DNA from: Pseudobacteriovorax antillogorgiicola
GTDB lineage: Bacteria; Bdellovibrionota_B; Oligoflexia; Oligoflexales; Oligoflexaceae
Assembly (NCBI RefSeq): GCF_900177345.1
Contig: NZ_FWZT01000003.1
Span: 248,001 to 312,000 of the forward strand
Length of the DNA: 64,000 nucleotides
Direction: 5' to 3'
Part shown: piece after piece, positions 13,439 through 41,254 of the stretch
Layout: each line of letters starts with the position of its first letter
Position numbering within the stretch: position 1 is the stretch's first letter
The notes under the pieces: generated by a model
The model's database searches: none
Seen by the model: only the letters and a program-made list of their open reading frames with translations
Told to the model about the DNA's origin: nothing
Made by a program: the position numbers and the translations under genes

Positions 13439-14431
13439 CTATTTTTGCCGTGACAGCGAAGCTGAGGGAACAATCGAAAAATCACCGTCCATACTATCTT
13501 TCCATAACAGCTGAAGAGTGATGTGATACCTAGGTCCTTGAAAGTAATCGACCCGAATCGGGTGAGAGCCTTTTTCTAGATAAATAGAGCCATCGACGCT
13601 TTTAGTAGCGTGAACACCATCATTATCGATAACCTTCTCATCACCAATGTATAGGTTAGAGCCATCATCCGCTGTGAGACGAAACCAGTATTGACCCGAC
13701 TCAGGAATTTCTATCTCACCAAGAAATTGGATTCCAAACCATTCAAACAGCTCGGGAAGGCCTGGAAAGCCGGTATCAAAAGCTCGTTCAGGGACATCCA
13801 AGTTGTTGACAACGATCCGTGCTTTTTCGGTGTATAAACCGAAATCCGGGAGCGACTGTGTTTGGGCTGCTAGCTCGAAAACTTGGCCCACCAAACCGTC
13901 GACTTTACCATCATCTGCGACTCCAATATCCTGGTCAGCTTTCAGAGTGACTAAACACGAGGCTTCCTGACCATCATCTGTTGTCCCAATAAACTTGATT
14001 TTCTGCTCTTCTGCGATCATTTCAGGAGCCTGATACATGATCGAACCTGGGCTTGAGCCCATCTGGTAGCTACCGAGCATCAGGCCACCTTCTACTGAAA
14101 TCATAAATCCAGTGTCTTCTTCAGTGATCTGCCACTGAAGCATCATGGTTTCCTGCGAGCCAACGATTTGATTGTCTGTGAGACAGGTAAGTGCTAAACT
14201 CTCATTGACAATGGCTTCATCTACAGAAGTTTCTTGGACCGGCACAGACACTTCTGGTGAAATCACTGCTTCATTGTCTGTAGAGCCTGGCACTCTCACC
14301 ACAGCGTCCGAACCTTGTTCTAAAAGATCGCTTTCTGAGGTTTTAGAGGAATGAACGCCATTCATGATGGCCTCGTCTTGGGCACATCCCAATACGAGAA
14401 GTAGGCTTCCGATAATTATACCTAGTTTCAT
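13439..14431 (-). CDS. Lipoprotein with C-terminal PA14-type domain
   Basis: The 330-aa precursor has a lipoprotein signal, MKLGIIIGSLLLVLGC, with Ala at +2, suggesting the outer membrane. I start it at ATG 14431 because the lipobox then lies at the usual distance and a G-rich site precedes it. Residues ~20-75 are a Ser/Glu-rich linker. Residues ~75-165 are beta-rich, with a Cys at each end ('LTCLTDNQIVG...ASCLVTL'). Residues ~180-325 match a PA14 fold: 'GIQFLGEIEIPESGQYWFRLTADDGSNLYIGDEKVIDNDG...GSHPIRVDYFQG' is the typical core. PA14 domains commonly bind carbohydrate, so surface adhesion or glycan binding is likely. The next gene upstream, also a lipoprotein, is 184 nt away. Confidence 0.88.
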   Translation of the reverse strand: MKLGIIIGSLLLVLGCAQDEAIMNGVHSSKTSESDLLEQGSDAVVRVPGSTDNEAVISPEVSVPVQETSVDEAIVNESLALTCLTDNQIVGSQETMMLQWQITEEDTGFMISVEGGLMLGSYQMGSSPGSIMYQAPEMIAEEQKIKFIGTTDDGQEASCLVTLKADQDIGVADDGKVDGLVGQVFELAAQTQSLPDFGLYTEKARIVVNNLDVPERAFDTGFPGLPELFEWFGIQFLGEIEIPESGQYWFRLTADDGSNLYIGDEKVIDNDGVHATKSVDGSIYLEKGSHPIRVDYFQGPRYHITLQLLWKDSMDGDFSIVPSASLSRQK

Positions 14432-14615
14432 AATCCCCCCAATAACGTCCTGCATTGTTCTACCTGCTTTTTCGACAAAGTAATGTTTGCCGTTGAATCA
14501 TGACGAATTCGTAATTGTTCACTGGGGTTTAGAGCGGACTATTTAATTTGAGACTGCTTGCGATCCGTAAAGGACCGCAACTGTCTTTTCTTACGGGAGG
14601 TATAATTCAAGCTAT

Positions 14616-15659
14616 TCAGGAGGCACAGAAGCCTACAACAGCGCTAGATGTTTCGGCATCTGTGGGGCAGTTGTCTTCAGTCTTGGCTATGGTCGACCCT
14701 AGAGGATTGTCACGAAGGCTGAGCAGGGCCCTCACTTCTAATCCTTTTGCTGAGGTAATCGACTCAATTGCATTATTATCGACTAATACGTAGTCCAGAT
14801 TCGTGAGGTTAAGAAGAGGGCTTAGATCGGTGATCTGATTAGAATCAGCCTCTAAAAATAGAAGTAAGCTCAGGCCACTTAGTGGACTGAGGTCGCCCAC
14901 CTGGTTCTCGTCAAATTGAATTTCCTGAAGAGCTACCAGCGAACCAATCGGGCTCAAATCGGCAACAGAGTTTTTCTTGAATTCGAGATTCGTTATCGCC
15001 ACTAGGGAAGATAAAGGAGCTAGATCGCTGACTTGATTATCTGAAAACCGCAGGTCTCGTAGTTCAGATAGCTCAGCGATGGATGAAAGATCACTGAGCT
15101 GATTGTCATTTAATAGAAGTACTTCGAGATTTGTCAAAGCTGATAGCGCGGAAATCTCGCTAATCTGATTGCCCTCTAAATTGAGACTCCTCAAACTAAT
15201 AACTGTAGCAAGTGGGGAAACATCAGAAATTGCTCCCGACTTTAAATTCAATTCAACTAAGGGCAAATTTGAAATGGGTGTCAAGTCTGACACTTGGTTA
15301 TCGGCTAGGTTCAGGTGAGTCAGGTGGGCAAAGTAAGCTAGCGCTGATAGATCTGAAAGACCCAGCCCCGAAAGATCTAGAACTTCGCTATCTTCGATGT
15401 TTAGCTGTGTTTCCGTACAGTTTCTACCGTAGACTCGTTCCGATATCAGAGCCATATCGCTGCTTTCACCTTGGGCGCGACAGTAAGTTGTGAACTCACT
15501 ATTCAAATCGTCTGCTACTTCAGGCCTTTCAACTGAATCTCCTGGTTCAGCTTCTATCGCTGCGTCACTCCCCTGATCACCGTTTTGTTCTTTAGAATCG
15601 CCGCCGCAAGCACTTAAGAGTACAGTGCAAATGATTGCGCATAGTCCCCGTAATAACAT
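14616..15659 (-). CDS. Internalin-type leucine-rich-repeat lipoprotein
   Basis: A 347-aa precursor with lipoprotein signal MLLRGLCAIICTVLLSAC (Gly at +2) and a GAGGGG ribosome site. After an acidic linker comes a Cys-containing cap, 'YCRAQGESSDMALI...RNCTETQLN'. About ten 22-residue LRRs of the internalin/SDS22 type follow ('LNLADNQVSDLTPISNLP'), and a second Cys pair closes the array ('NCPTD...GFCAS'). Such solenoids are protein-interaction surfaces. Anchored in the outer membrane, it could bind a host, prey or partner protein. The cap closely resembles the one in the truncated lipoprotein at the right window edge (62436). The repeats are regular and uninterrupted. Confidence 0.92.
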   Translation of the reverse strand: MLLRGLCAIICTVLLSACGGDSKEQNGDQGSDAAIEAEPGDSVERPEVADDLNSEFTTYCRAQGESSDMALISERVYGRNCTETQLNIEDSEVLDLSGLGLSDLSALAYFAHLTHLNLADNQVSDLTPISNLPLVELNLKSGAISDVSPLATVISLRSLNLEGNQISEISALSALTNLEVLLLNDNQLSDLSSIAELSELRDLRFSDNQVSDLAPLSSLVAITNLEFKKNSVADLSPIGSLVALQEIQFDENQVGDLSPLSGLSLLLFLEADSNQITDLSPLLNLTNLDYVLVDNNAIESITSAKGLEVRALLSLRDNPLGSTIAKTEDNCPTDAETSSAVVGFCAS

Positions 15660-16054: not shown

Positions 16055-17092
16055 ATGTCGAGTCGAAACTGGCGAGGGAGACTGTCTTTAAAAGACGACT
16101 GCAAAGTCATTGAAGGCCCTTACGGTTTGCTAGAAGTCATCAGGGGAGATCGGAGCATAGTGATCGAAGTTCCAGCAGATGAACGATCTCAATATTTGAC
16201 AATGAACCCTGTGGCGATCAGTAAGCTAGCCATTCACCTTTTAGACTCAGGCTTGGTTAGGTATCAGCCCATGAGCTTTTGGGATCACACCAAGAATTGG
16301 TTTACAGCTCCTGCCTATCCCAAAGAAGGTATCTTTCCCTATGTAACAAAACATGGTGACTTAGATCAGTTGAATATCCAGGGTATCTTAAAGAACGCAG
16401 AGATTCGCGGCACCCGATCCTACGATCCTCTCGCCATTCTTTTTCAGCTACTACCCTTTAGCTATCAAGATCGAGCCCAAGGATTTTACCACCACGCTTC
16501 GGAACTGGAAAAGCAATCTCATGACCAGTTCAAACAGCTATCAGTATACTACCTATCTCAGGCTTACTATATTAAAAGCCATATTCTGCCGTCTTTGGCT
16601 CCAGCACTTCGATGGAAACGGATTCGTGAGCGACTCCACCATTTCATCAAGGAGAGTGAAAACCGAGAATCACTAGCCTACCATCAATTTATTAAGGCCC
16701 AGGCAAGGGGTGAGCAAGCCTATAGGCCGCTTTATGAGACCACACAACTTATGGAAACCCTGTTTCGAACTGCCGTTGATCACCCATTTTCCTTCACACT
16801 GGGCATGTGCCTATTCGATCAAGGGCAATGTCTGGGCGATCACCCACTCGCACAATCGATGAAGCGATATGTGGTTGGCGATGACCGGCGCACAGCCTAT
16901 GGCACTAGCCAACAAAGATATAGGCACCCAACCATAGAATTAGTCGCCGACATGGGACCAATTCCCCAGCAAGCTGCGATTAACGGAGTTCTATCATTTT
17001 TCTGTTTTATCGCGGGATTTGAATCCATTTACGCCCAACTAAGGCGAGAGCTGAATCGCTTGGCAGGCAACGACGCCAGAACCCTTGGCTGA
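16055..17092 (+). CDS. Uncharacterised 345-aa protein
   Basis: I do not recognise the family. The start is well supported (AGGAGAG then TTATG), and the frame runs 345 codons with coherent protein-like composition. There is no signal peptide. The middle (residues ~130-230) is helical and rich in aromatics, His and Gln ('YQDRAQGFYHHASELEKQSHDQFKQLSVYYLSQAYYIKSH'). A hydrophobic segment near the C-terminus ('INGVLSFFCFIAGFESIYAQL') could be amphipathic or membrane-associated. His and Glu spacing is faintly like helical-bundle metal proteins, but no motif is convincing. It is a single gene, convergent with the DUF1552 gene 22 nt downstream. Context gives no role. Confidence 0.75.
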   Translation: MSSRNWRGRLSLKDDCKVIEGPYGLLEVIRGDRSIVIEVPADERSQYLTMNPVAISKLAIHLLDSGLVRYQPMSFWDHTKNWFTAPAYPKEGIFPYVTKHGDLDQLNIQGILKNAEIRGTRSYDPLAILFQLLPFSYQDRAQGFYHHASELEKQSHDQFKQLSVYYLSQAYYIKSHILPSLAPALRWKRIRERLHHFIKESENRESLAYHQFIKAQARGEQAYRPLYETTQLMETLFRTAVDHPFSFTLGMCLFDQGQCLGDHPLAQSMKRYVVGDDRRTAYGTSQQRYRHPTIELVADMGPIPQQAAINGVLSFFCFIAGFESIYAQLRRELNRLAGNDARTLG

Positions 17093-17114: not shown

Positions 17115-18431
17115 CTAGAAAAACTCGGTAAAATGACCAGAATCGTTTTGAACATTCTCATCATCATGCTGCCAGTCCGACGAATCGATTCCCAAAGCCT
17201 TAAAAACGGTCAATGCTGACCGAACTGGGCTAGCTCCCCCTGCATCGTTATGAATCCCTTTTTTGTACGCCGAATTACCAGCACCTCCAAGGAGAATGGT
17301 TGGCAGGTTCGTGAAGCGATGGGATGGGAAAGTTTCTTCGGTAACCCCATAAATCAAGGTTTGATCTAGCAGATTGCTCTCACCTTCGACTACTCCAGCG
17401 AGGGAACTTGCTAACATTCCCAATTGATTCATAATGATGCCTGTAATACCGCTGAGACGTTCAGCATCCTCTCTGTGGGTCAACTCATGATGATGAAGCT
17501 GGTCGGATATTGTCGGATAGATCTGATTGCTCGCTGGAGCTGAATGCAGAATCGAAACGACCCTTGTCATATCACACTTGAATAGATTGCTCGTGATCGA
17601 GGACATAACTCTCATTCGCTCATCAAGATCATCATTGTCAATGGCTTGGCTTGGATTGACCGCCAATTGATCACAAGATTTATTTTGCTTATCATCAATA
17701 ATCTTGGCAAGATCGTTCACGTTCGCGAAGTATTCTTCGATGATATGCTTGTCCTTCTGCGATACTTTGTTCATTAGACGCTTGGTATCTTCTTTCAAGG
17801 CATTCATCAGGGAAATCTTCGTTAAGTACTCATTTTTGTCTGGCACCTGTCCAAAGAGTCGGTTGAACGCGGATGCAGGGTCGATTTCGGCTGCGAGAGG
17901 GAGAGGGTCGATATCAGCACTGGGCTTTCTGTAAGATAATATATCGGAACTGGGAACGATTCCATCTGAGTCTACAGAGTTGCTGACCCGTAGCTGGATG
18001 GATTCATAGGTCTGGTTGGTAGAAATTTTACCGGCAATATACTGGTCTATGGTTGAGTAGTTGTGCTTCTCGGTTCTTGGACTACTGCCGGATAGCTGCA
18101 TGTAGTATTTCGCTGCATGAGGGTCGATCCCAGGGTTGGTGACACTCAAACCAGAGACGATATTTAACTGGTTCGCAAAACTAGCGAGCCCTTGCATGGA
18201 CGGAGTTAAGGTAAATCCAGCTCCAGTCGTAGTCGGAAAAAAGTTATTGGAAACTCCGCAGCCAAAATAAAACATTACAAATCGTTGTGGCAGACCTTCC
18301 CCATTCGCTAGGGCATCACCATTACTGTTCAGCATCATTTCAAGCATAGGAAGCCCCAAAGCCACCATAGAGCCGTTAGCGATCCCTCTGAGCAGCGTAC
18401 GCCGATCCAAACTTCTATTCTTTAGTATCAT
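17115..18431 (-). CDS. DUF1552 family protein with Tat-type signal (pair 1)
   Basis: A 438-aa exported protein of the DUF1552 family, common in Planctomycetes and Myxococcota and of unknown function. The N-terminus 'SLDRRTLLRGIANGSMVALGLPMLEMML' is a twin-arginine signal, implying export in folded, possibly cofactor-bound form. 'RFVMFYFGCGVSNNFFP' and 'QLNIVSGLSVTNPGIDPHAAKYY' are typical early family segments. 'DQLHHHELTHREDAERL' is a His-rich motif that could hold metal. The start overlaps the end of the DUF1592-like gene by 17 nt, so the two are co-translated. A second such pair lies at 22.2-25.2 kb. The reaction is unknown. Confidence 0.87.
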   Translation of the reverse strand: MILKNRSLDRRTLLRGIANGSMVALGLPMLEMMLNSNGDALANGEGLPQRFVMFYFGCGVSNNFFPTTTGAGFTLTPSMQGLASFANQLNIVSGLSVTNPGIDPHAAKYYMQLSGSSPRTEKHNYSTIDQYIAGKISTNQTYESIQLRVSNSVDSDGIVPSSDILSYRKPSADIDPLPLAAEIDPASAFNRLFGQVPDKNEYLTKISLMNALKEDTKRLMNKVSQKDKHIIEEYFANVNDLAKIIDDKQNKSCDQLAVNPSQAIDNDDLDERMRVMSSITSNLFKCDMTRVVSILHSAPASNQIYPTISDQLHHHELTHREDAERLSGITGIIMNQLGMLASSLAGVVEGESNLLDQTLIYGVTEETFPSHRFTNLPTILLGGAGNSAYKKGIHNDAGGASPVRSALTVFKALGIDSSDWQHDDENVQNDSGHFTEFF

Positions 18432-20067
18432 TGTCTATCTCCACGGGTTCAATAATAAGATCGCTCTTGAGTATTCTGTACAGAAGCTCATCTACTGATT
18501 TATCGCTACCTTTCTGAAACTGCTCTACAATTTCCTTAACCCCATTGCGAGCATCGCGAGTTTCAAGTTCACCCTTGGCAATGCGCAAAGCGTGAATCGC
18601 AAAGCATTCTGTTACCCGAGGGTCACTGGCCAAGATATCACTTAATTCTACGCCTCCCTGGTAATCTTGTTGATTCGCCATGGAAGGAAGTTCATAACTG
18701 GCCAAGTCAGGAAAAGCTACAACCTCTCCGTTTTGTCCGTAACCTTCTAGGCCGAGCGCTATGGGATCGAGCAGTGTATGACATCCCGAACAATTACTAT
18801 TATCCAAGCGAGCTTTGATCACCTCGTACTTATCTGCATCGTCGGGCAAACCAGTAGAAAGATCGAGTTCGGGAGGTGGCAATGGAATATCTTGGCACAA
18901 CAAATGCTGTAAAATAAAGTGACCTCGCTTGGTAGGAGATGTTGCACCACTTCCACCCCTCATCAAAAACGACGATCGAGTGAGAAAGCCTGATCGATCC
19001 TCAGCAGGTAGAATAGAAGCCGAAACATCAACCCCATAAGTATCGGCTAAGGTTTGATCTAGCTTTGTTTTGTTTGATCTCAAGAAGGTAGTGATAAAGT
19101 CGTCGCTATTTATACTCTCATTGACAAGGTAGTCAAATTCGTTGATAGCAGATTTAGCCAATTCAGTCTGTGAGTTTGTAGAGTTCGCCACCGAATGAAG
19201 CTTTGCGATGGACATCCAATCCCCAAAAAGAGTTTTCATGCCATTTTGAAATCGAGCCTCATCCTTCATCATGTCTTTAATGATTTTCGTTCTTTGACTC
19301 TCATCAAATAGTTTGCCCTCTTCTGCTGCTTTAAGTAGGGTATCATTTGCCGGACTATCCCAAAGAAAATATGCCAATTCATTAGCTATCACCCGACTGT
19401 ACTCGGCTTTGAATGAATCACTCGGATCATCGTCTAGCTCGTCTGTCTTGGATAGAGTCTCGAAGTAGAGCGCCTTCGGCGATAGCATCATCGATGTTAG
19501 TGCGGCCTGAATTCCATCGCAGTTCAAACGTTCAGGAGAAAGTTGACTATCCTGGCCTTTCAGATCCTTCTTCACTCCTAAGAAAAGCTGCTCATAGCTA
19601 CTGAGATTTTCTTGCTTCCCGTGAAATAGAGAGACTGCAATAGGCTTTAGACCAGCCAGTAACTGTTCAGTGGAAAGTAAACCACAAGATGAACCAAAGT
19701 GTTTTTCAAAAGCTTGAGAAGCTACGTAGGCTGCGCTTATTTCCCAGGCAGCCTGTGAATATAGTTCAATGTCCCGCAGCGAGAATGTTGCACCTTTTGT
19801 ACCTACAGAGATCAGGCTATGCTTGGGTAGATCGTCAGGCAACTTTGCATCAATGGTAAAATCCATACCAAATGTAGTTTTTGCTTTATTAAGAAATTGG
19901 GAGCTTGTGATTCTTCTTAGCTCAAAGTTTAGAAGCTTTGTCTGATCGATAGGAACTTCTTCAGCTCTAGCAGCAGATTGATGGGGAGGGTTAACTTTAT
20001 TTTTGTTACAGGATACCAGAATAAGCACCTGGGTCATGATCAGAACCGCACCTGCAATTTTTTTCAC
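18415..20067 (-). CDS. DUF1592/DUF1588-type lipoprotein with CxxCH motif (pair 1)
   Basis: A 550-aa predicted lipoprotein of the DUF1587/1592/1588/1585 multi-domain family. I use GTG 20067 (MKKIAGAVLIMTQVLILVSC) because GAGG lies 6 nt before it; a GTG four codons earlier is the alternative. The C-terminal part holds 'CSGCHTLLDPIALGLEGYG', a CxxCH cytochrome-c-like heme site followed by the 'DP.GLG.E.YG' context typical of DUF1588, then a DUF1585-like tail ('TECFAIHALRIAKGELET'). It is probably periplasmic and lipid-anchored. It overlaps the DUF1552 gene by 17 nt. A heme or other redox role is inferred from the motif only. Pair 2 encodes a paralogue. Confidence 0.85.
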   Translation of the reverse strand: MKKIAGAVLIMTQVLILVSCNKNKVNPPHQSAARAEEVPIDQTKLLNFELRRITSSQFLNKAKTTFGMDFTIDAKLPDDLPKHSLISVGTKGATFSLRDIELYSQAAWEISAAYVASQAFEKHFGSSCGLLSTEQLLAGLKPIAVSLFHGKQENLSSYEQLFLGVKKDLKGQDSQLSPERLNCDGIQAALTSMMLSPKALYFETLSKTDELDDDPSDSFKAEYSRVIANELAYFLWDSPANDTLLKAAEEGKLFDESQRTKIIKDMMKDEARFQNGMKTLFGDWMSIAKLHSVANSTNSQTELAKSAINEFDYLVNESINSDDFITTFLRSNKTKLDQTLADTYGVDVSASILPAEDRSGFLTRSSFLMRGGSGATSPTKRGHFILQHLLCQDIPLPPPELDLSTGLPDDADKYEVIKARLDNSNCSGCHTLLDPIALGLEGYGQNGEVVAFPDLASYELPSMANQQDYQGGVELSDILASDPRVTECFAIHALRIAKGELETRDARNGVKEIVEQFQKGSDKSVDELLYRILKSDLIIEPVEIDNDTKE

Positions 20068-20447
20068 ATCTCGCCTCACCTGTGGATATCTCTAAATCAA
20101 AGCATAAAGTGATTCAGCTTCAAGCAATAGGGCCTGTATTTCAAGATGCGTTCCCAATACAGACTGACCCAACTAGCCAGAATGTTTAGGGTGCTAGACT
20201 TAGCTTTCTGTAGAATCTTTTACTGCAAACCAACGAGTTCTTAGTATTGCTAAACCCTTAGGGCCAAAGTGAAGTTTTTTCATGGATGAGTCTACATTTC
20301 CCGTGGGATCTTCCGTGGGCGTTACACAATATGTCCTACATCTTGGAGATTGGTCTCGATTCGAAAAAACTTAAATTCTCTTCTTAAGTGAAGATTGATA
20401 AACTAAAGAACAAATCTCAAATCTAAAGCATGATTCGCTAACGATGA
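20068..20447. other. Divergent intergenic region with a small inverted repeat
   Basis: A 380-nt spacer between the DUF1592 gene and the MFS gene, with no ORF of note. ACTTAA (20369-20374) and TTAAGT (20384-20389) form a perfect 6-bp inverted repeat 9 nt apart, about 60 nt before the MFS start, and could be an operator. No other element is seen. Confidence 0.35.
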
Positions 20448-21662
20448 TTGGAGTCACCTTTGCTTCATCGCCTGCCACGACACTATCTTGTGATGATGGC
20501 ACTCGCATTCTTATCAACTGTGACATCATTTATTTTCCCTTTGACAGCTCCGATCATCATGACAATGACAAAATCAAGCCCGACTGAGGTCACTCTCGCA
20601 CTCGGGATTCTTGGGCTTATCGTAGGGCTTTCTCAGCCCTACTTTGGGAGCTTTCTGGAAAAGGGCCGAATCCTTGCTCCCTTTCTCCTTTCTGTTAGTG
20701 GCGTAGCTTGTGGCTTGATGGTATTTGTCTTTCAAAGTTCTTCACTGATCATGGTTCTCGCCGGGCTCTTAGCCTTAAATATCGGGTATGGTGTTTACCA
20801 GACTACAAGCTCAATCATCGGTTTAGGGCTCATTCCCAGCTCCCTGCGAGAAACGGGTGCCAGCTACTTCTTTTTAGTAGTCAATCTTGGTCTCGCAATT
20901 TCTGCAGTTCTTGCAGCACTTTTCTTAACGCGATGGCGAGACATCATGTTCATCCTAGATCTATGCACGACTCTTTTAGCAGTATTCGGAGTCTATTTTA
21001 TAACACTTCGTAAACGTCATGCTATCACAATACGCCGAACTTCAAATCACACTAGCTATAGACTAGTATTCCAAACCATCTATCACCATGCTCCTCTTAT
21101 GATTGGCATTACGCTACTCTTCGCTGGTACCCATCTCGCAATTATGATCCTACCTTTATATTTTGAGTTTAAGGGTCTCGACACCATGAGATTGACGGCA
21201 TATCAGATGCTTCTCAATACCATGATTGTAGCCCTAGGAACATTGGTTGTCGGGCATTGGGTTGACTACCTAGGACGTCCACGTTCTGCTTGCCTTTCGG
21301 GACTTTTAATTGGCAGCGCATTTATCTTAATTCCATATGTTGAGTTCAGAGTTATCTTCTTCGTCTACGCGTGCTTGTTTTCCCTTGGTGAAGTCATTGC
21401 CGTCCGCTTAGGTTCAGCCGTATTCTTCGACATCTTTCCAGAAGATCGTAAAGGCCTTGCATCGGGCACGAGTATGATGATCCATAGCATTGCTCGCACG
21501 ATGTCGCCATTACTGGGCTTGAGCCTATTTCATTTGCCAGTCGCCACAGCTTCATATTTGCTAGGGGTGACTTTCATCCTTGGTGGAACCCTGCTTGGGT
21601 ACTGGTATTGGAGCTATAGCTCAGAAATAACCCTAACCTCACACATGGAACATGCATCTTAA
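20448..21662 (+). CDS. Major facilitator superfamily transporter
   Basis: A 404-aa inner-membrane protein with about 12 hydrophobic helices in two halves, as expected for MFS drug or metabolite transporters (usually 390-420 aa). The first half opens with 'YLVMMALAFLSTVTSFIFPLTAPIIM'. 'GLIVGLSQPYFGSFLEKGR' is the loop 2-3 region, in the place of the family motif GxLaDrxGrr, and 'TLVVGHWVDYLGRPRSACLSG' is the equivalent loop in the second half. The start is uncertain: TTG 20448 is the longest, while TTG 20460 has GGAG at the right distance. It stands alone between the two DUF1592/DUF1552 pairs. Its substrate is not predictable. Confidence 0.85.
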   Translation: MESPLLHRLPRHYLVMMALAFLSTVTSFIFPLTAPIIMTMTKSSPTEVTLALGILGLIVGLSQPYFGSFLEKGRILAPFLLSVSGVACGLMVFVFQSSSLIMVLAGLLALNIGYGVYQTTSSIIGLGLIPSSLRETGASYFFLVVNLGLAISAVLAALFLTRWRDIMFILDLCTTLLAVFGVYFITLRKRHAITIRRTSNHTSYRLVFQTIYHHAPLMIGITLLFAGTHLAIMILPLYFEFKGLDTMRLTAYQMLLNTMIVALGTLVVGHWVDYLGRPRSACLSGLLIGSAFILIPYVEFRVIFFVYACLFSLGEVIAVRLGSAVFFDIFPEDRKGLASGTSMMIHSIARTMSPLLGLSLFHLPVATASYLLGVTFILGGTLLGYWYWSYSSEITLTSHMEHAS

Positions 21663-22217
21663 ATATCAAGGGAAGTAAAACCTATGAGACAAGGTTTGGT
21701 TAAAGAAAATGCTAGGAGATAGTACAAATCATGAGTGACGAGTATTTCTTAGGCGTAACGAAGGATCAAAGGTTTTGCTCCCCTTAATAGGTGTTTTTGC
21801 CCTGTTACAAACTCAATGCGGATCTTGCTGTAGCGGTAAGGCTAGAGCTACAATCCGATTTTTACATCAACTTTTTGATATCGGCGGAGTACACGGTGTG
21901 TTTCATAGACTCTGCTTGTAGTACCTGACTCTAAGTTCCAGTAATAAATAGCTTCTTCTGCCATCACTGACCACCAAAAATAGGATTTTCCGGCAATTCT
22001 TCCAGCTCTAAACACTCCGCCCAAACCACGCTTACCTATGATTATGCCAAGCATTTCTTCGCTTATTAAACACTTCTCCTAGTCCTTGGGCATCATTTTG
22101 CAAAGACTCGATTACCATTGACTCAGGTTATCGATGTATTGATTCCGCTGTAGCTCTTCTTATGACACCTCGGAATTTGGTAGAAACCACCGTTTCATTA
22201 TTAAGGAGCTTAAAGAC
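21663..22217. other. Intergenic region before DUF pair 2
   Basis: About 555 nt. The only candidate gene is a weak 68-codon minus-strand frame (21848-22054, listed separately). AAGGAG lies shortly before the next gene's ATG. No strong hairpin or repeat is seen. Confidence 0.4.
21848..22054 (-). CDS. Possible small basic protein (weak)
   Basis: A 68-codon frame whose C-terminal half ('AEEAIYYWNLESGTTSRVYETHRVLRRYQKVDVKIGL') has plausible protein composition. The start lacks a well-placed ribosome site, and a later Met is possible. There is no recognised family or operon partner. It may be a remnant or spurious. Confidence 0.3.
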   Translation of the reverse strand: MLGIIIGKRGLGGVFRAGRIAGKSYFWWSVMAEEAIYYWNLESGTTSRVYETHRVLRRYQKVDVKIGL

Positions 22218-23921
22218 ATGGTTCGAAAGTCACTCATACTCTCGCTACCCATCCTGCTTAGTCAGGTGGCTTGTACCCAACTTGGGTTCGAGCTTAACCG
22301 CAAGGAAAATAAACCAACACAAACGGAGGAACAGCAGTTTCCCCCGGCGACCGTCTCTGAAGAGACTATAGCCGAAATGGATCAGAAGCTCATAGACCGT
22401 GTAAATATCGACCCCAAGTGTGAAGAGCAAGCATCATCAAGTCCATCGATACGAACTCTGACCCGCGAAGAATACCTAACAACAGTAACTTCACGTCTAT
22501 CGATCGATTTAGCTGAAGTTGATATCGCCAGTGAGTTACCTCTCAACTCAATTGAAAAAGGCTTTCGCAACATCGCTGAATTGAATCAGATCTCACGAGG
22601 CCGCTTAGAGCAGTATCTCGATGCTTCGGAACTAGTGGCTGAGCAGTTTATATTGCAGAGCCCTAATGTTTTTAACTGTGGCCAGGCCCCTGGAAACTGT
22701 GTCGATCAATGGCTAAAGAGTGAGCTTACTGTGATTTGGCGTCAAGCTATCGCAGCTGAGGATTACGAAGAATTAATCGCCTTCTTCGAGGAGAACGGTA
22801 GCAATGAGGCAGCCTTCAAACTGCTAGTTCAACGAGTCATCATGTCTCCTAACTTTCTGACAATTCGCGAGCTAGGATCCGGGGGACAGTTAAGCAGCTA
22901 TGAACTATTATCGAGCCTTGCTTTTAGTATGTGGGGCCAGGGTCCGGACAAAGAGCTAATCCAAGAGGCTGCTAATACAGCATTTGATACTAGAGAGAAG
23001 GTTGAAGCTAAAGTTCGACAGATGATGAAAGATGACCGATTCGATATTGGACTTAAGCGATTCCTGGAGGCATGGCTAGAGACCGATCGCATCCATCGCA
23101 CTAATAATTCTGAAGAGACCTTCCCCGGTTTTACCAATAACTTAAAAGGTAAGCTCGAAGAAGACGTATTCCTAGTGTTCCGATATCTAATCGATAATGA
23201 CATGGACACATTTGAAAACATTGTCAAAGTCGACTTTACTTTTACATCCTCTGAAGTGGCCCAAATCTATGGCCTTAACCGCCATGAAAGTGGAGTTCAG
23301 TTTCGCAACTCAGATATGTACGCCCTACAGGACTCGGCTAAAGGCCTGATGAGCTTACCTGGCATCGTTTCAGGACTGAGCACTAATAATAATTCGAATA
23401 TTCCAATGCGTGGCAACTTTGTCCTTAGTAAGGTTCTTTGTACAGAACTACCTGAACCGAGCGCTGAAATTTTGGAGCAAAGTGCTGGCCTGCTACCAGA
23501 CATGAATCTCAGTGCCCGAGACAGCTTGCAAAAGCAAACGGAAATTCCCGCCTGCTACGGTTGCCACGAGTCAATCAACGGCATAGGCTTTGGCCTTGAG
23601 AATCTTTCTCCTATCGGCAAAGTTCGATCCATGGACGACCATCAAAAACCAGTCAATGCAATCTCAAACTACGTTCAGACCAATCGTGAAACCATAGAGT
23701 TTAATGGTGCTCAAGGCATGAATGACTTATTGAGTATCTCGGAACGAGCCCAGCAGTGCATGGCAACTCAAATCTTCCGTTTTTCTTACGGTCGCTTTGA
23801 GTCCACTGAAGACAAGTGCACGATCGCTAAGTCTCGCATCCTCGCTTGGGATCAGGGAACCAAGTTTTCCGACATACTTGTGAATCTCTACACTTCACCA
23901 CTTTTCATGCAACGAAAATAG
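22218..23921 (+). CDS. DUF1592/DUF1588-type lipoprotein with CxxCH motif (pair 2)
   Basis: A 567-aa precursor with lipoprotein signal MVRKSLILSLPILLSQVAC (Thr at +2). It is paralogous in architecture to the product of 18415. A DUF1587-like opening ('IRTLTREEYLTTVTSRLSIDL') is followed by DUF1592-like helical repeats ('KVRQMMKDDRFDIGLKRFLEAWLETDRIHR'), 'GIVSGLSTNNNSNIPMRGNFVLSKVLC', and the DUF1588 segment with 'CYGCHESINGIGFGLENL', a CxxCH heme-like site. The C-terminus ends like DUF1585 ('CMATQIFRFSYGRFES...YTSPLFMQRK'). The DUF1552 gene starts 10 nt downstream. Periplasmic, lipid-anchored and possibly redox-active; function unknown for the family. Confidence 0.86.
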   Translation: MVRKSLILSLPILLSQVACTQLGFELNRKENKPTQTEEQQFPPATVSEETIAEMDQKLIDRVNIDPKCEEQASSSPSIRTLTREEYLTTVTSRLSIDLAEVDIASELPLNSIEKGFRNIAELNQISRGRLEQYLDASELVAEQFILQSPNVFNCGQAPGNCVDQWLKSELTVIWRQAIAAEDYEELIAFFEENGSNEAAFKLLVQRVIMSPNFLTIRELGSGGQLSSYELLSSLAFSMWGQGPDKELIQEAANTAFDTREKVEAKVRQMMKDDRFDIGLKRFLEAWLETDRIHRTNNSEETFPGFTNNLKGKLEEDVFLVFRYLIDNDMDTFENIVKVDFTFTSSEVAQIYGLNRHESGVQFRNSDMYALQDSAKGLMSLPGIVSGLSTNNNSNIPMRGNFVLSKVLCTELPEPSAEILEQSAGLLPDMNLSARDSLQKQTEIPACYGCHESINGIGFGLENLSPIGKVRSMDDHQKPVNAISNYVQTNRETIEFNGAQGMNDLLSISERAQQCMATQIFRFSYGRFESTEDKCTIAKSRILAWDQGTKFSDILVNLYTSPLFMQRK

Positions 23922-23931
23922 GAGACACGAC

Positions 23932-25155
23932 ATGACTAGGAAAGTAACTAGGCGACAGTTCGCACAATATCTTCGAAACGGCGCGATCGCCGCTGCCTTC
24001 AGTAAAACGATTATTTCAGAACAAGCATTAGGTGCTGTACCGGGTAAAAACCTTGTGATTTTCAGCCACCCCAATGGCCATAAATCATGGGGCCTCACCC
24101 AGGCTGCAGTCAACGGCACAGGAATGGCTAGTCGCGCTCTTTTATCAGAAGGAATGTTCTACAATACAAATGGTATCTCTCATGGTGGAGCGGCGAACAT
24201 CTTGCGTTTTAACGCTAACCAAGGTGGGTCCTTTGACATCGATCTCGATCAAGCTATGGGTATCAAAACCCTTCGTTTAGCTATCGACTTCAATCCTAAC
24301 CAGAACCAGGACAACATGTGCCGAGACGCTAATGGTCAGTTGGGTAGAATTGTCGACAATCCCCAAAAAGCATTTGACGATCTATTCTCGGACGCTGCCG
24401 TGATTACAGATCCTGGAATGAGACAGGATATATATGCAGGAAAAAAATCGATCATCGATCACTGTCTCGAAGATGTCAGAAAAATAAAGTCTGGCCTTGG
24501 TAGCCTGGGCAGTCTATTCGATGAGAACTTACAGGCTCTAATTGAGCTTCAAGAGCAAATACTCACTCTGCAAAGTGAAGCAGCAGAGGCCGCGACTCAA
24601 GAACCACCCGCCACCCAGTGCGCGAACCCACAGATTCAGATTCCCAATGGGCCTTCCCCTCAAAACTACAATGCCTACTTTGATGTGATGTCAGAGATCA
24701 TCTACCAGGGTATCGTTTGTAATCGCACCCAAGTCGCAGTATTGCAAATGTCAAATGCCCAATCGGATATGGTATTCAACTTCCCTGGCAGCCCTGTAAA
24801 CAGCAATGCTGGGTTTCACGGTGGCCTGGTTCACGGTACAAACCGTGGTAACGATTATCAGCAGATTGTCTCCTGGTACATAGGAAAAGTTGCTGGGTTC
24901 GCCAACCGACTCGCCATGACAACCGGTGACGTCCTTAAGGATTCGGCTGTGGTTCACTTAAGTGAAATGGGCATCGCTGACCACTCCACCCGCGATATCC
25001 CTTTCATTGTCTATGGAGAGTTAGGTGGCGCAATCCAAACCGGTCGCAGAATACAAGGCAACAGCTCTACCAGTAGCTTCTTAAAAACAGTCACCGACGA
25101 TATGTTTGGCCCTGTGGTGGGTCAGGGAGTGACTCCCATGAGAGGTCTTGCATAA
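23932..25155 (+). CDS. DUF1552 family protein (pair 2)
   Basis: A 407-aa partner of the preceding gene, 10 nt behind it, with AGGAG before ATG. The N-terminus 'KVTRRQFAQYLRNGAIAAAFSKTI' is a twin-arginine-like signal. Family resemblance includes 'KNLVIFSHPNGHKSWGL', 'MYDVMSEII'-like helices, and 'GFHGGLVHGTNRGNDYQQIVSWYIGKVAGFANRLAM', where His residues occupy the place of the His motif in the pair 1 protein. Residues ~190-225 are a coiled coil ending in a short linker with a Cys. Compared with pair 1 it is shorter and clearly diverged, so the pairs are not a recent duplication. Reaction unknown. Confidence 0.83.
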   Translation: MTRKVTRRQFAQYLRNGAIAAAFSKTIISEQALGAVPGKNLVIFSHPNGHKSWGLTQAAVNGTGMASRALLSEGMFYNTNGISHGGAANILRFNANQGGSFDIDLDQAMGIKTLRLAIDFNPNQNQDNMCRDANGQLGRIVDNPQKAFDDLFSDAAVITDPGMRQDIYAGKKSIIDHCLEDVRKIKSGLGSLGSLFDENLQALIELQEQILTLQSEAAEAATQEPPATQCANPQIQIPNGPSPQNYNAYFDVMSEIIYQGIVCNRTQVAVLQMSNAQSDMVFNFPGSPVNSNAGFHGGLVHGTNRGNDYQQIVSWYIGKVAGFANRLAMTTGDVLKDSAVVHLSEMGIADHSTRDIPFIVYGELGGAIQTGRRIQGNSSTSSFLKTVTDDMFGPVVGQGVTPMRGLA

Positions 25156-27681: not shown

Positions 27682-29232
27682 TCACTGTGCCACTGGCGAA
27701 GCCATATTGATAAATGTAATGGCGCCCTTATTCATCCCATCAGAATCGTCTTCAAAAGGAATTCCTATAGCAGCATTGAGCCCATCGATGGCTAAGCTAA
27801 AGCTATACTGAGAGCCTAATTCAAGGTCACTTGGCTTCCCCATCTTATAACTCATTGTCCAAATTCCGTTTTCATAGCGATAGAAGTAGGCACTTCCCAC
27901 ATCTGTCATCGTAGCTTGATCTGCGTGATCATCACCTGGCGCTCCTACCATTATTGTATTTCCAGAGATGGCCACAGCAAACCCGAAATGATCCTTTGCA
28001 GCTAAATCCGAAGGTGGAGCGATAACATCAGCCGCCCATACTCCATTTGCTAGGCGAAACACAAAGGCTGCTCCTGCATCAGCTCCTGACTCATCGCTCT
28101 TATAAGCTCCCACAACCGCAACACTGTTATCTCCGCCCTGAATATCAACACTTTTTCCAAAATGCAGATCTGCCGTAACGGTATTGGGTGCAAGTTTGCT
28201 CTTTAGCGACCAAACCCCCGCAATATCGCGCTGATACACATAAGCGGCACCGACTTGAGTCGCTAGACTTGCCCCATCTGTCTCGTCATAAAGAGGAGCT
28301 CCTACAATGGCAAGGTTGCCATGGACCGCGACGCTTTCGCCAAAGAAAGCATCGGCCTGCTGATCCCCTAGTGGAGCTGTAATTTCTCCGGAAGCTGAAA
28401 AAGCATTCACGCTATCGGAATGAAATAGGTAGACTCGCCCCACTCCCTCATCATCGCCCTTGGCTCCCACAATTATATCGATCCCGTTGATCGGAAGGCC
28501 GGAGTTTGGATCAAGGTTTGGGTCGGCAAAAATATCGACACTGATGCCGAAGACATCGTTGTTGGCTAAACCTGCTGGGATTATAGCTTCTTGAAAGCAA
28601 TTCCAAACTCCAGCGCTATTCATTTTAAAAACGAAGATACCTCCCTTTAACCCGATGCCCTGGATGGATGTTTCAATGAGCGAGGAGCCTATATTGCCCA
28701 TGAAATCGTCGTTGACATCGGAGGAGTCATCGAAATCCTGTGGCGCTCCCACAACGGCAAAGTTTGAGGATATGGCAACCATTTTGCCAAAGTGGGATTC
28801 TTCAGATTGGGTTGCCCCACAGCTTGCTGGAGTTACCTTTTGCTTCATCACCCAAGTCTCAGTATCACCGCGTGCCTCCCATCGATAGAAATAGGCTGCC
28901 CCAGCATCAACATCATCGTCATCATCTCCCCAGGCTCCTGAGATCAACCATTTCCCGGAAATATCCACGCTGTAACCAAGCAAGTCGCCTTCTCGGGCTG
29001 GATTGTTAGCCTTAATAATTTCCTTTGGTGGTAACTCCGGGCTTATAACCTCACTGCTTCCATCGTCAGCAGTGTCCGACACATCTGCAACGGGTGGAAT
29101 GATACTGCCATTTTCTTGCTGAAAGGAATCATCAGGCCCTGTTCGATTTGAGTTCTGCCCAGCAAAATGAGATCCCGAACAAGATGCTGCTATGATACAT
29201 ACGGTCAAAACCATGATATTAATTATTCGCAT
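27682..29232 (-). CDS. FG-GAP repeat lipoprotein, predicted seven-bladed beta-propeller
   Basis: A 516-aa precursor with signal MRIINIMVLTVCIIAASC (Ser at +2). I start it at ATG 29232 with AAGGA upstream; TTG 29241 would be three codons longer. After a ~60-residue linker the protein is seven successive FG-GAP units, each running 'FGxSVAI.GN.A.VGAP..D....G.A.V.' (for example 'FGESVAVHGNLAIVGAPLYDE' and 'FGFAVAISGNTIMVGAPGDD'). This is the number needed for an integrin-alpha-like propeller. Asp-rich loops ('GDDDDDVDAG') suggest calcium sites. It is probably surface-exposed on the outer membrane and used in binding or adhesion. A possible small gene ends 12 nt upstream. Confidence 0.9.
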   Translation of the reverse strand: MRIINIMVLTVCIIAASCSGSHFAGQNSNRTGPDDSFQQENGSIIPPVADVSDTADDGSSEVISPELPPKEIIKANNPAREGDLLGYSVDISGKWLISGAWGDDDDDVDAGAAYFYRWEARGDTETWVMKQKVTPASCGATQSEESHFGKMVAISSNFAVVGAPQDFDDSSDVNDDFMGNIGSSLIETSIQGIGLKGGIFVFKMNSAGVWNCFQEAIIPAGLANNDVFGISVDIFADPNLDPNSGLPINGIDIIVGAKGDDEGVGRVYLFHSDSVNAFSASGEITAPLGDQQADAFFGESVAVHGNLAIVGAPLYDETDGASLATQVGAAYVYQRDIAGVWSLKSKLAPNTVTADLHFGKSVDIQGGDNSVAVVGAYKSDESGADAGAAFVFRLANGVWAADVIAPPSDLAAKDHFGFAVAISGNTIMVGAPGDDHADQATMTDVGSAYFYRYENGIWTMSYKMGKPSDLELGSQYSFSLAIDGLNAAIGIPFEDDSDGMNKGAITFINMASPVAQ

Positions 29233-29244
29233 GATGACCAATCC

Positions 29245-38836: not shown

Positions 38837-41254
38837 ATGACCGTCAAGAAAAGATTGAAGCCCAGCGTTTGGATTTCTTACGCATCGAACATGATGTTTC
38901 TTATCCTTTGGGGAACTTTGGCACAGGCGAGCGAAGTTACATCTCAACTTTACCCCAAGGCTCAAAAGGTTTTGAACCAACGTTGTATCGCTTGCCATAG
39001 CTGTTACGGATCACCTTGCCAAATCAATCTCAATAGCTACGAAGGCATCATGCGCGGCGGCCTAGCAGATCCGATTTACGATGGCATGCGATTGACCCCA
39101 CAAGACCCTACGCGACTCTTCATCGATGCCGACACCCCCGAGGAATGGCAGAAAAAACATAATTTTTTTCCCATAGTGAACCCCAAGCTCAAGACTTCCA
39201 GTTTACTGACGCAATCAACAGAACTGGGAAGATCCCGCGGTTTGAACTACCGCAACTATCAATTCGACGCTAAAAACAACCTGCAATGCCCGAAGCAAGA
39301 CGCCTGGTCGGCATTTGCCAAGGACCACGTCAAACGGGGGATGCCTTTTGGCTTTCCAGCACTGACAACAGCAGAGCAATCAGCCTTGACTAGCTGGGCC
39401 AATGCTGGATTTCCAGGAGAGAGCCACGCAGATCAAACCTTAATTCAGGGAATGGATCAAAAATTACAAAAGACCATCCGAGACTGGGAAGCCTGGCTGG
39501 GTGGTGTTGCAATCAAGCAACGAATCGTGAGTCGGTATTTGTATGAGCACTGGTTTCTGGCTCATATTCACTTTGAAAACCACGACGATAAATTCTTCAG
39601 GATCGTACGATCAAGCACACCTTGGCCTCAGGAGATCAAAGAAATTGCGTCCGTCCGCCCCTTCGACGATCCCAAAGTCGAGCGTCTCTACTATCGATTT
39701 CGCCCCGTCCGCGGGGAAATTATGCATAAGAATCATATCGTTTTCGAGCTAAGTGAAGAGAACAAATCTTTCTACAATCGCCACCTGCTCCACGGTAATT
39801 GGGTATTCGAACCCAAGTCCTTCCCCTCCTACGAGCCTGACAAGGCCGCCAACCCACTTCTTACCTTCAAAGATATGCCTTTAGAAGGCCGCTATCGATT
39901 CCTACTCAGAAATGCTTTGTACTTCACACAGAGCTACATTCGTGGCCCAGTTTGCGAGGGGCAGGTGGCTGTAAACGTGATCCGAGATCATTTTATGATC
40001 GCTTTCGTCGACCCTGACAGCGACATATCCATCCAAGACCCCAACTTCCTTATCTCTGCTAATTCATACTTGTCTTTGCCCGCCAGCGGGCAGTCCTCCC
40101 CATTCGAATCCTACTACGCTGCCTATAATGAAAAACAACGGAAATATGCAAAATTTAGAGCCGATCAGTTTCGAAAAAAGCATCTAGCCCTGACCCCCAA
40201 TAGCTTGTGGGATGGCGATGGCTTCGATCGCGACGCTCTTCTAACAGTTTTTAGACATTTCGATAATTCAAGTGTTCTACGTGGCGCTTGGGGGGGTAGC
40301 CCAAGAACTGTGTGGGTCATGGATTATCCGATCTTTGAAAGAATGTACTATCTACTCGTCGCAGGCTTTAACGTGTTCGACAACGTTTTTCACCAGTCCG
40401 CGACCCGTCTCTATATGGATAACTTAAGAGTCGAATCGGAAAATAACTTTCTGTACCTTCTACCAGAATCTGTAAGGGAAAAGGTCAGAGCTCATTGGTA
40501 CGAAGGCAAGGATGCATGGGAAACTATCCAAGAAGATCATCCTTTGCACAGTGCATCGTACCGTTATCAATCGCTGCTAGAGCCTACCGCGACAGCCCAT
40601 CCTCGCAAGATAGTTGAAGTTAGCTGGAGTAAAATTCTGCAATCTAGACTTTCTGCGGTTGCGCCAAAGGAAGATCCATTTCATTGCTGCGTTTTGAATG
40701 CTAGAAAGAAAACTCCCCGAAACGAACTAGAGACCGCCATGCAGGCATTTACAAGCCATCAGCAAGGCTTTGCTCAGCATCTCCCCGAAGCTATGCTGAT
40801 TTCTCTATATAACGAGTCTGGCAAGGACACGATTCTATTTGCCAATAAACTTAGCTCTCACAGCAACATGGCGTTCATGTTCAACGAGAAGGAGCGACGA
40901 CAACCAGAATACGACCGGGTTATCGTGACGAAAGACTGGGTGGGCAGCTATCCTAATTTGATCTTTCACGGCAGTCCTAAGACATTTACAAACATGGTGA
41001 TGGAGCTGAGAACGGCCACGGAAAAACTAGACGTCTACAACATCCTTGGCAAGTACTGGCTAACTCGGGACACCCCAAATTTTTGGGTCATCTTTGACCG
41101 CATCCACCATTCACTCAAGTCCAAGTTTCCTCTTGTTTATGGCCGTTTAGATTTGAGCAAGTATGAAAATATATACAAGGTTCCTAAGCAATTAGGTTCT
41201 ATCAAAAGTGCATCAAATACTTTGGATTCATCGATTCGCCCCACTGACAAATAA
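38837..41254 (+). CDS. cti: Periplasmic fatty acid cis/trans isomerase (Cti)
   Basis: Converts cis unsaturated fatty acids of membrane phospholipids to trans without releasing them, stiffening the membrane under solvent or heat stress. It has 805 aa, in the range of known Cti (~760-800). A signal sequence precedes the c-type heme site 'CIACHSCYGSPCQ' (C50-x-x-C53-H54), the Cti signature, followed by 'NLNSYEGIMRGG' and 'ADTPEEWQKKHNFFPIVNP'. 'GGSPRTVWVMDYPIFERMYYLLVAGFNVFDNVFHQ' is another strongly conserved block. GGAAGG precedes ATG. It is a single gene; a dispersed repeat begins 5 nt after its stop. Confidence 0.95.
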   Translation: MTVKKRLKPSVWISYASNMMFLILWGTLAQASEVTSQLYPKAQKVLNQRCIACHSCYGSPCQINLNSYEGIMRGGLADPIYDGMRLTPQDPTRLFIDADTPEEWQKKHNFFPIVNPKLKTSSLLTQSTELGRSRGLNYRNYQFDAKNNLQCPKQDAWSAFAKDHVKRGMPFGFPALTTAEQSALTSWANAGFPGESHADQTLIQGMDQKLQKTIRDWEAWLGGVAIKQRIVSRYLYEHWFLAHIHFENHDDKFFRIVRSSTPWPQEIKEIASVRPFDDPKVERLYYRFRPVRGEIMHKNHIVFELSEENKSFYNRHLLHGNWVFEPKSFPSYEPDKAANPLLTFKDMPLEGRYRFLLRNALYFTQSYIRGPVCEGQVAVNVIRDHFMIAFVDPDSDISIQDPNFLISANSYLSLPASGQSSPFESYYAAYNEKQRKYAKFRADQFRKKHLALTPNSLWDGDGFDRDALLTVFRHFDNSSVLRGAWGGSPRTVWVMDYPIFERMYYLLVAGFNVFDNVFHQSATRLYMDNLRVESENNFLYLLPESVREKVRAHWYEGKDAWETIQEDHPLHSASYRYQSLLEPTATAHPRKIVEVSWSKILQSRLSAVAPKEDPFHCCVLNARKKTPRNELETAMQAFTSHQQGFAQHLPEAMLISLYNESGKDTILFANKLSSHSNMAFMFNEKERRQPEYDRVIVTKDWVGSYPNLIFHGSPKTFTNMVMELRTATEKLDVYNILGKYWLTRDTPNFWVIFDRIHHSLKSKFPLVYGRLDLSKYENIYKVPKQLGSIKSASNTLDSSIRPTDK

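Follow-up and report, generated by a model that had tools for sequence, protein, structure and literature searches.

We find that the gene for a DUF1592-family lipoprotein and the gene for a DUF1552 protein form a real and well-conserved two-gene module, two examples of which lie in the 64,000-nucleotide stretch of the Pseudobacteriovorax antillogorgiicola genome analysed here (hereafter the window). Its location is ordinary and it is not unique to this locus; the module is of a known kind and is functionally unexplained. We give roughly even chances to the reading that each pair is an envelope oxidoreductase unit, with DUF1552 as the likely catalytic, metal-bearing subunit and DUF1592 as an electron carrier. 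The two families are widespread, yet we know of no reaction assigned to them so far.

The open reading frames place pair 1 at 17115–20079 on the minus strand and pair 2 at 22218–25155 on the plus strand. Pair 1 comprises a DUF1552 (HXXSHH) protein of 438 residues with a twin-arginine signal (17115..18431, minus) and a DUF1592-family c-type cytochrome-like lipoprotein of 554 residues that begins with GTG (18415..20079, minus). In pair 2 the lipoprotein has 567 residues (22218..23921, plus) and the DUF1552 (HXXSHH) protein, again with a twin-arginine signal, has 407 (23932..25155, plus). The original prediction had described the same two-gene module occurring twice on opposite strands, with a 17-nt overlap in pair 1 (18415–18431), a 10-nt gap in pair 2, a single CxxCH in each lipoprotein and a twin-arginine signal in both partners. 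The coordinates of the reading frames agree with this arrangement, Pfam confirms the families, and an RR motif is found in each DUF1552 protein. The predicted heme-binding motifs are CSGCH in pair 1 (C430; 18778..18792, minus) and CYGCH in pair 2 (C446; 23553..23567, plus).

Both lipoproteins match PSD4/DUF1592 (69.5 bits for pair 1 and 98.2 bits for pair 2; cut-off 23.3) and PSCyt3/DUF1588 (64.7 and 66.0; cut-off 27), and their partners match DUF1552 (PF07586; 154.2 and 82.0 bits; cut-off 30). The lipoprotein of pair 2 carries the domain series PSD3-PSD5-PSD4-PSCyt3-PSD2, with four of the five domains above the Pfam cut-off and PSD5 below it; in that of pair 1 only PSD4 and PSCyt3 exceed the cut-off, PSD2 and PSD3 being weak (below it) and PSD5 undetected. 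The lipobox of the pair 2 protein, LSQVAC, is atypical, yet the lipobox Cys is at least 90% conserved across the family.

Other genes of the window were also recorded. A 345-residue reading frame adjoining pair 1 (16055–17092) gives no Pfam or NCBIfam match, and a PA14-domain protein and a leucine-rich-repeat protein, both with lipoprotein-like N-termini, are encoded consecutively at 13439–15659 (minus). An FG-GAP repeat protein whose N-terminus is also lipoprotein-like lies at 27682–29241, and Pfam identifies the product of 38837–41254, at 650 bits, as a fatty acid cis/trans isomerase (CTI).

The pairing of DUF1592 with DUF1552 is far above chance. The host genome (7.28 Mb in 68 contigs) contains 13 DUF1552 and 13 DUF1592 genes, which form 13 pairs, all intact. 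Across 16 genomes of the order, 91 of 102 PSD4 matches (~90%) have a same-strand DUF1552 gene no more than 3.2 kb away, several of the unpaired matches being on short contigs. Both counts bear out the genome-wide co-occurrence of the two families that had been proposed as a check. The families are patchy within the phylum, with PSD4 present in 20 of 58 genomes. In the relatives searched, a single genome has as many as about 20 copies, and the families extend across many phyla.

We then considered 80 named loci, retrieved by searching genome contigs with a four-sequence alignment and spanning Planctomycetota, Verrucomicrobiota, Acidobacteria, Myxococcota, Gammaproteobacteria, Armatimonadetes and Bacteroidetes. 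Adjacency was counted in six frames; a count based on open reading frames overlooks genes beneath longer antisense frames. DUF1552 is immediately downstream of 66 of the 88 DUF1592 genes and immediately upstream of 6, so that 72 of the 86 scorable genes adjoin DUF1552; 2 more lie at contig edges, and for 14 of the 88 the neighbour is absent. Most within-pair junctions across the named loci are 4-nt overlaps, and pairing is seen at 19 of 20 loci inspected in one order of Gammaproteobacteria.

The partners are also inherited together, as judged by the matching positions that the window pairs take in the DUF1592 and DUF1552 trees. Pair 1 is sister to a pair on another contig (C2:419k) in both protein trees (support 0.92 and 1.00). 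The trees likewise agree in clustering pair 2 with three pairs elsewhere in the genome (C5:91k, C3:93k and C3:146k; 0.99 and 1.00). Distances among DUF1592 proteins correlate with those among their DUF1552 partners at 0.94 over 86 pairs, and at 0.915 among the 13 paralogues of the host genome, a value exceeding all 5,000 permutations. Paralogues from the same genome control for shared species history, and the partners are therefore not freely exchanged. The trees do not bear out the suggestion that the two window pairs are diverged local copies: they are not sisters, the nearest paralogue of each lies elsewhere in the genome, and we rejected local duplication as their origin. Nor did we attach meaning to their clustering, since two modules this close (within about 5.3 kb) arise in ~11% of random placements of 13 modules in 7.3 Mb.

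The reading frame between the pairs encodes an MFS_1 protein (Pfam 89.6); it is situated upstream of pair 2, at a distance of 556 bp, and is oriented divergently to pair 1. This gene has no close relative in the nearest genomes, where its only homologues (two, at 25% identity) lie away from the pairs. The original prediction had suggested an exporter between the two pairs. Without conserved linkage to the pairs elsewhere, the MFS gene was rejected as a module component and is counted as a mere neighbour. The gene order of the window is what speaks for a single three-part export/redox system made of a locally duplicated module and an MFS exporter; given the unlinked MFS gene, the separate positions of the two pairs in the trees and a spacing that chance would produce in about 11% of random placements, we hold such a system to be extremely improbable.

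We sought clues to function in predicted structures. Neither DUF1552 nor DUF1592 has a convincing solved-structure relative by sequence. The DUF1552 structure model (pTM 0.83) has leading PDB fold matches that all belong to the alkaline phosphatase superfamily (1p49, E 2.5e-4, probability 1.00), including steroid and choline sulfatases, the periplasmic domains of YejM and EptC, and phosphonate hydrolases; TM-scores to sulfatases are modest (0.3–0.4). DUF1552 is thus predicted, from its model, to belong to the alkaline-phosphatase/sulfatase fold class. Were this likeness to extend to chemistry, DUF1552 would be a plain phosphatase- or sulfatase-like hydrolase and DUF1592 a lipoprotein for binding or scaffolding, its heme having a structural role, a reading that these fold matches favour but that we consider quite unlikely. 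The Ser, Thr or formylglycine-Cys nucleophile and the Asp metal ligands of the superfamily are absent from DUF1552: judged by motif, the nucleophile position is His in 107 of 113 family members and the Asp pair after strand 1 is replaced by a P-N-G-like motif. The recurrent association with cytochrome c, cytochrome b561 and sugar dehydrogenase described below would likewise be unexpected for a hydrolase.

What the family conserves instead is a set of histidines. Among 113 members the RR motif is invariant, as are His315 and His319, and His105 and His371 are kept in 107 and 110, respectively. In the pair 1 protein His105 heads the segment HAAKYYMQLSG (18087..18119, minus), His315 and His319 lie in HHHELTH (17475..17495, minus) and His371 lies at 17301..17321 (minus). 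All four are kept in both window copies; in pair 2 the equivalent of the invariant pair is HGGLVH (24817..24834, plus), with one residue more between the two histidines, and Lys replaces the usual Asp356. Because the His105-headed HxxxxxxxLTG shares the spacing of the sulfatase CxPSRxxLLTG, His appears to stand at the place of the formylglycine Cys; this correspondence was drawn by eye from motif spacing, as the profile alignment of DUF1552 with sulfatases is weak, covering the C-terminal part only and at low probability. The motif HxxSHH, from which the family takes its name, occurs letter for letter in neither window protein: pair 1 has HELTHR (T for S, R for the last H) and pair 2 HGGLVHG. 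It is not needed for the Pfam match and many members deviate from it; both invariant His remain.

Profile comparison does align DUF1552 with DUF1501 (probability 96%, E 4.8e-9), whose modules have DUF1549-like or DUF1800-like partners. The host genome contains three sister modules (L070:5895-9357, L074:7556-11108 and L076:5584-9271), each pairing a DUF1501-like protein with a CxxCH partner. The CxxCH protein matches the DUF1592 profile in all three and has a PSD2-like end in two; the Tat protein matches a DUF1552-derived profile in three of three and DUF1501 in two of three. These modules differ from the DUF1592/DUF1552 pairs in that each includes a small extra gene (encoding a lipoprotein in most), and DUF1501 has Asp/His motifs (DTH, RDHW) at the places of the His-only motifs of DUF1552.

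DUF1592 presents a different picture. Its model (pTM 0.85) consists almost entirely of helices, and no PDB structure matches its fold. By its architecture, the DUF1592 block would correspond to the X132 region of Cellvibrio Cbp2D, and the missing fold match agrees with the statement of PMC10916295 that homologues of X132 characterised in structure or function are lacking. The CxxCH is invariant in two family alignments, and no distal heme ligand is assignable. An extra cytochrome c domain (PSCyt1 or CBB3) is fused in about 30 of 56 DUF1592 proteins, and a CBM60 domain is present in 11 of the 56. In the host genome a small separate cytochrome gene lies just upstream of two pairs, and CcmF and CcmH genes lie upstream of the C2 pair, so genes for c-type maturation are present.

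The surroundings of the module in relatives extend this association. Sphingobium plasmids have the order DUF1592–DUF1552–cytochrome c'–cytochrome b561 (L192:11956-16939 and L197:11911-16101), with an SDR dehydrogenase next in some and a TonB receptor nearby; in TomTYG65, annotation covers only the cytochrome b561 and SDR genes of an operon of this type. A Pseudoalteromonas protein of 2,157 residues combines three CBM26 domains, a glucose/sorbosone dehydrogenase, a cytochrome c and the DUF1592 block, and is followed by DUF1552; a similar starch-type protein adjoins an alpha-amylase gene at another locus (L235). Variants of the DUF1592 block occur with chitinase-A-N/fn3 domains (L229) and with a Cip1-like domain (L237). 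On a Planctomyces plasmid a DUF1080 gene follows the pair. Of 65 same-strand genes next after the pair, 17 encode an ankyrin-repeat protein, several of these loci being acidobacterial (L127, L133, L137, L139, L175 and others); the window has no such gene, and we therefore left it out of the functional reading.

A redox role is favoured by the invariant CxxCH, the fused and separate cytochromes c, the cytochrome b561 operon, the glucose/sorbosone dehydrogenase fusion and CcmF/CcmH. The CBM60 domains, together with the CBM2/YceI (see below), chitinase-A-N, Cip1-like and alpha-amylase contexts, point to a link with polysaccharides. That link may not apply to the window copies, since neither lipoprotein there carries the additional cytochrome or carbohydrate-binding domains: Pfam identifies no CBM, YceI or second cytochrome (X183) domain in them.

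Among the closest known systems is Cbp2D/Cbp2E of Cellvibrio japonicus, with which TERTU_3803 and TERTU_2913 of Teredinibacter are grouped. In one gammaproteobacterium (L228:4762-10324), three consecutive genes encode a Cbp2E-like protein (CBM2 and YceI), a Cbp2D-like protein (CBM2, YceI, cytochrome and DUF1592 block) and DUF1552. The C-terminal block of the Cbp2D-like protein is PSD3-PSD5-PSD4-PSCyt3-PSD2, the set shared with the window, the next gene is DUF1552, and the adjoining CBM2 and YceI gene resembles cbp2E; the window proteins differ in being lipoproteins and in lacking the accessory domains. This likeness is drawn from Pfam domains and architecture. The gene row suggests that the cellulose system may have, besides Cbp2D and Cbp2E, DUF1552 as its third partner, a neighbour that goes unmentioned in the retrieved passages of the Cbp2D and Teredinibacter papers (PMC8981238, PMC12542752, PMC10916295). 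Growth of C. japonicus on insoluble cellulose is poor in cbp2D/cbp2E mutants (PMC12542752, PMC8981238), and the X183 cytochrome is able to reduce LPMOs (PMC8981238); for the Teredinibacter relatives, the authors regard their data as inconsistent with an LPMO-donor role (PMC10916295).

The authors of PMC12542752 raise the possibility that cellulose is cut by Cbp2D/E itself, which would suit an arrangement in which catalysis falls to DUF1592, as a heme oxidase or as a donor to other oxidases, and DUF1552 only helps, in assembly or by binding the substrate. The fusion of the block to substrate-binding and redox domains in Cbp2D-type proteins, and the DUF1592 genes that have no DUF1552 neighbour, are consistent with this; the invariant His of DUF1552, however, are of the kind expected at an active or metal site, and Tat export fits a cofactor-bearing DUF1552. 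On these grounds we judge catalysis by DUF1592 to be unlikely.

Gene pairs of similar kind have been noted before. In Verrucomicrobia a PSCyt3 gene usually adjoins a second family of function-unassigned genes, and CBMs were noted (PMC5615132). The PSCyt3/PSD pairs of Planctomycetes and Verrucomicrobia resemble those of the window in domain set and gene pairing, but belong to other phyla, and the N-terminal cytochrome and CBM-like domains common there are absent from the window. The claim of an undescribed system therefore stands only in part: the pairing had been noted (PMC5615132), and Cbp2D, whose X132 region the DUF1592 block would match by architecture, has a genetic phenotype on cellulose (PMC8981238, PMC12542752). 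Of the wider interpretation, what holds is a module of two envelope components that are conserved and inherited together, plausibly with a redox role; the MFS gene and the sister copies fall away.

For the oxidoreductase unit that we favour, we propose the following mechanism. DUF1592 would be a lipid-anchored, helical protein with a predicted single-heme c-type cytochrome domain, acting as electron carrier. DUF1552 would be exported folded by Tat, and its pocket of four near-invariant His would most likely hold a metal, making it the likely catalytic subunit on an extracytoplasmic substrate. In a putative complex of the two, electrons would be exchanged between the site in DUF1552 and the heme of DUF1592, and from there would reach the cytochrome c/quinone chain of the cell; in the sphingobia the route may run through the cytochrome c' and cytochrome b561 of the operon. 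The substrate probably differs from one paralogous pair to another.

We also put forward, tentatively and as something we hold possible but doubtful, that extracytoplasmic oxidoreductases of a widespread class have in DUF1552 a catalytic subunit that has been overlooked. Its sulfatase-like fold would have been rebuilt around a four-His metal site, trading electrons with a heme domain of a new type (DUF1592/X132), and the class would include the partner that Cbp2D lacks so far in attacking cellulose. The co-inheritance of the partners, the predicted rebuilding of the alkaline-phosphatase fold and the position of DUF1552 beside Cbp2D-type genes turn the question of what Cbp2D does into a defined experiment on two or three proteins, for a module whose related parts help other bacteria attack tough polysaccharides.
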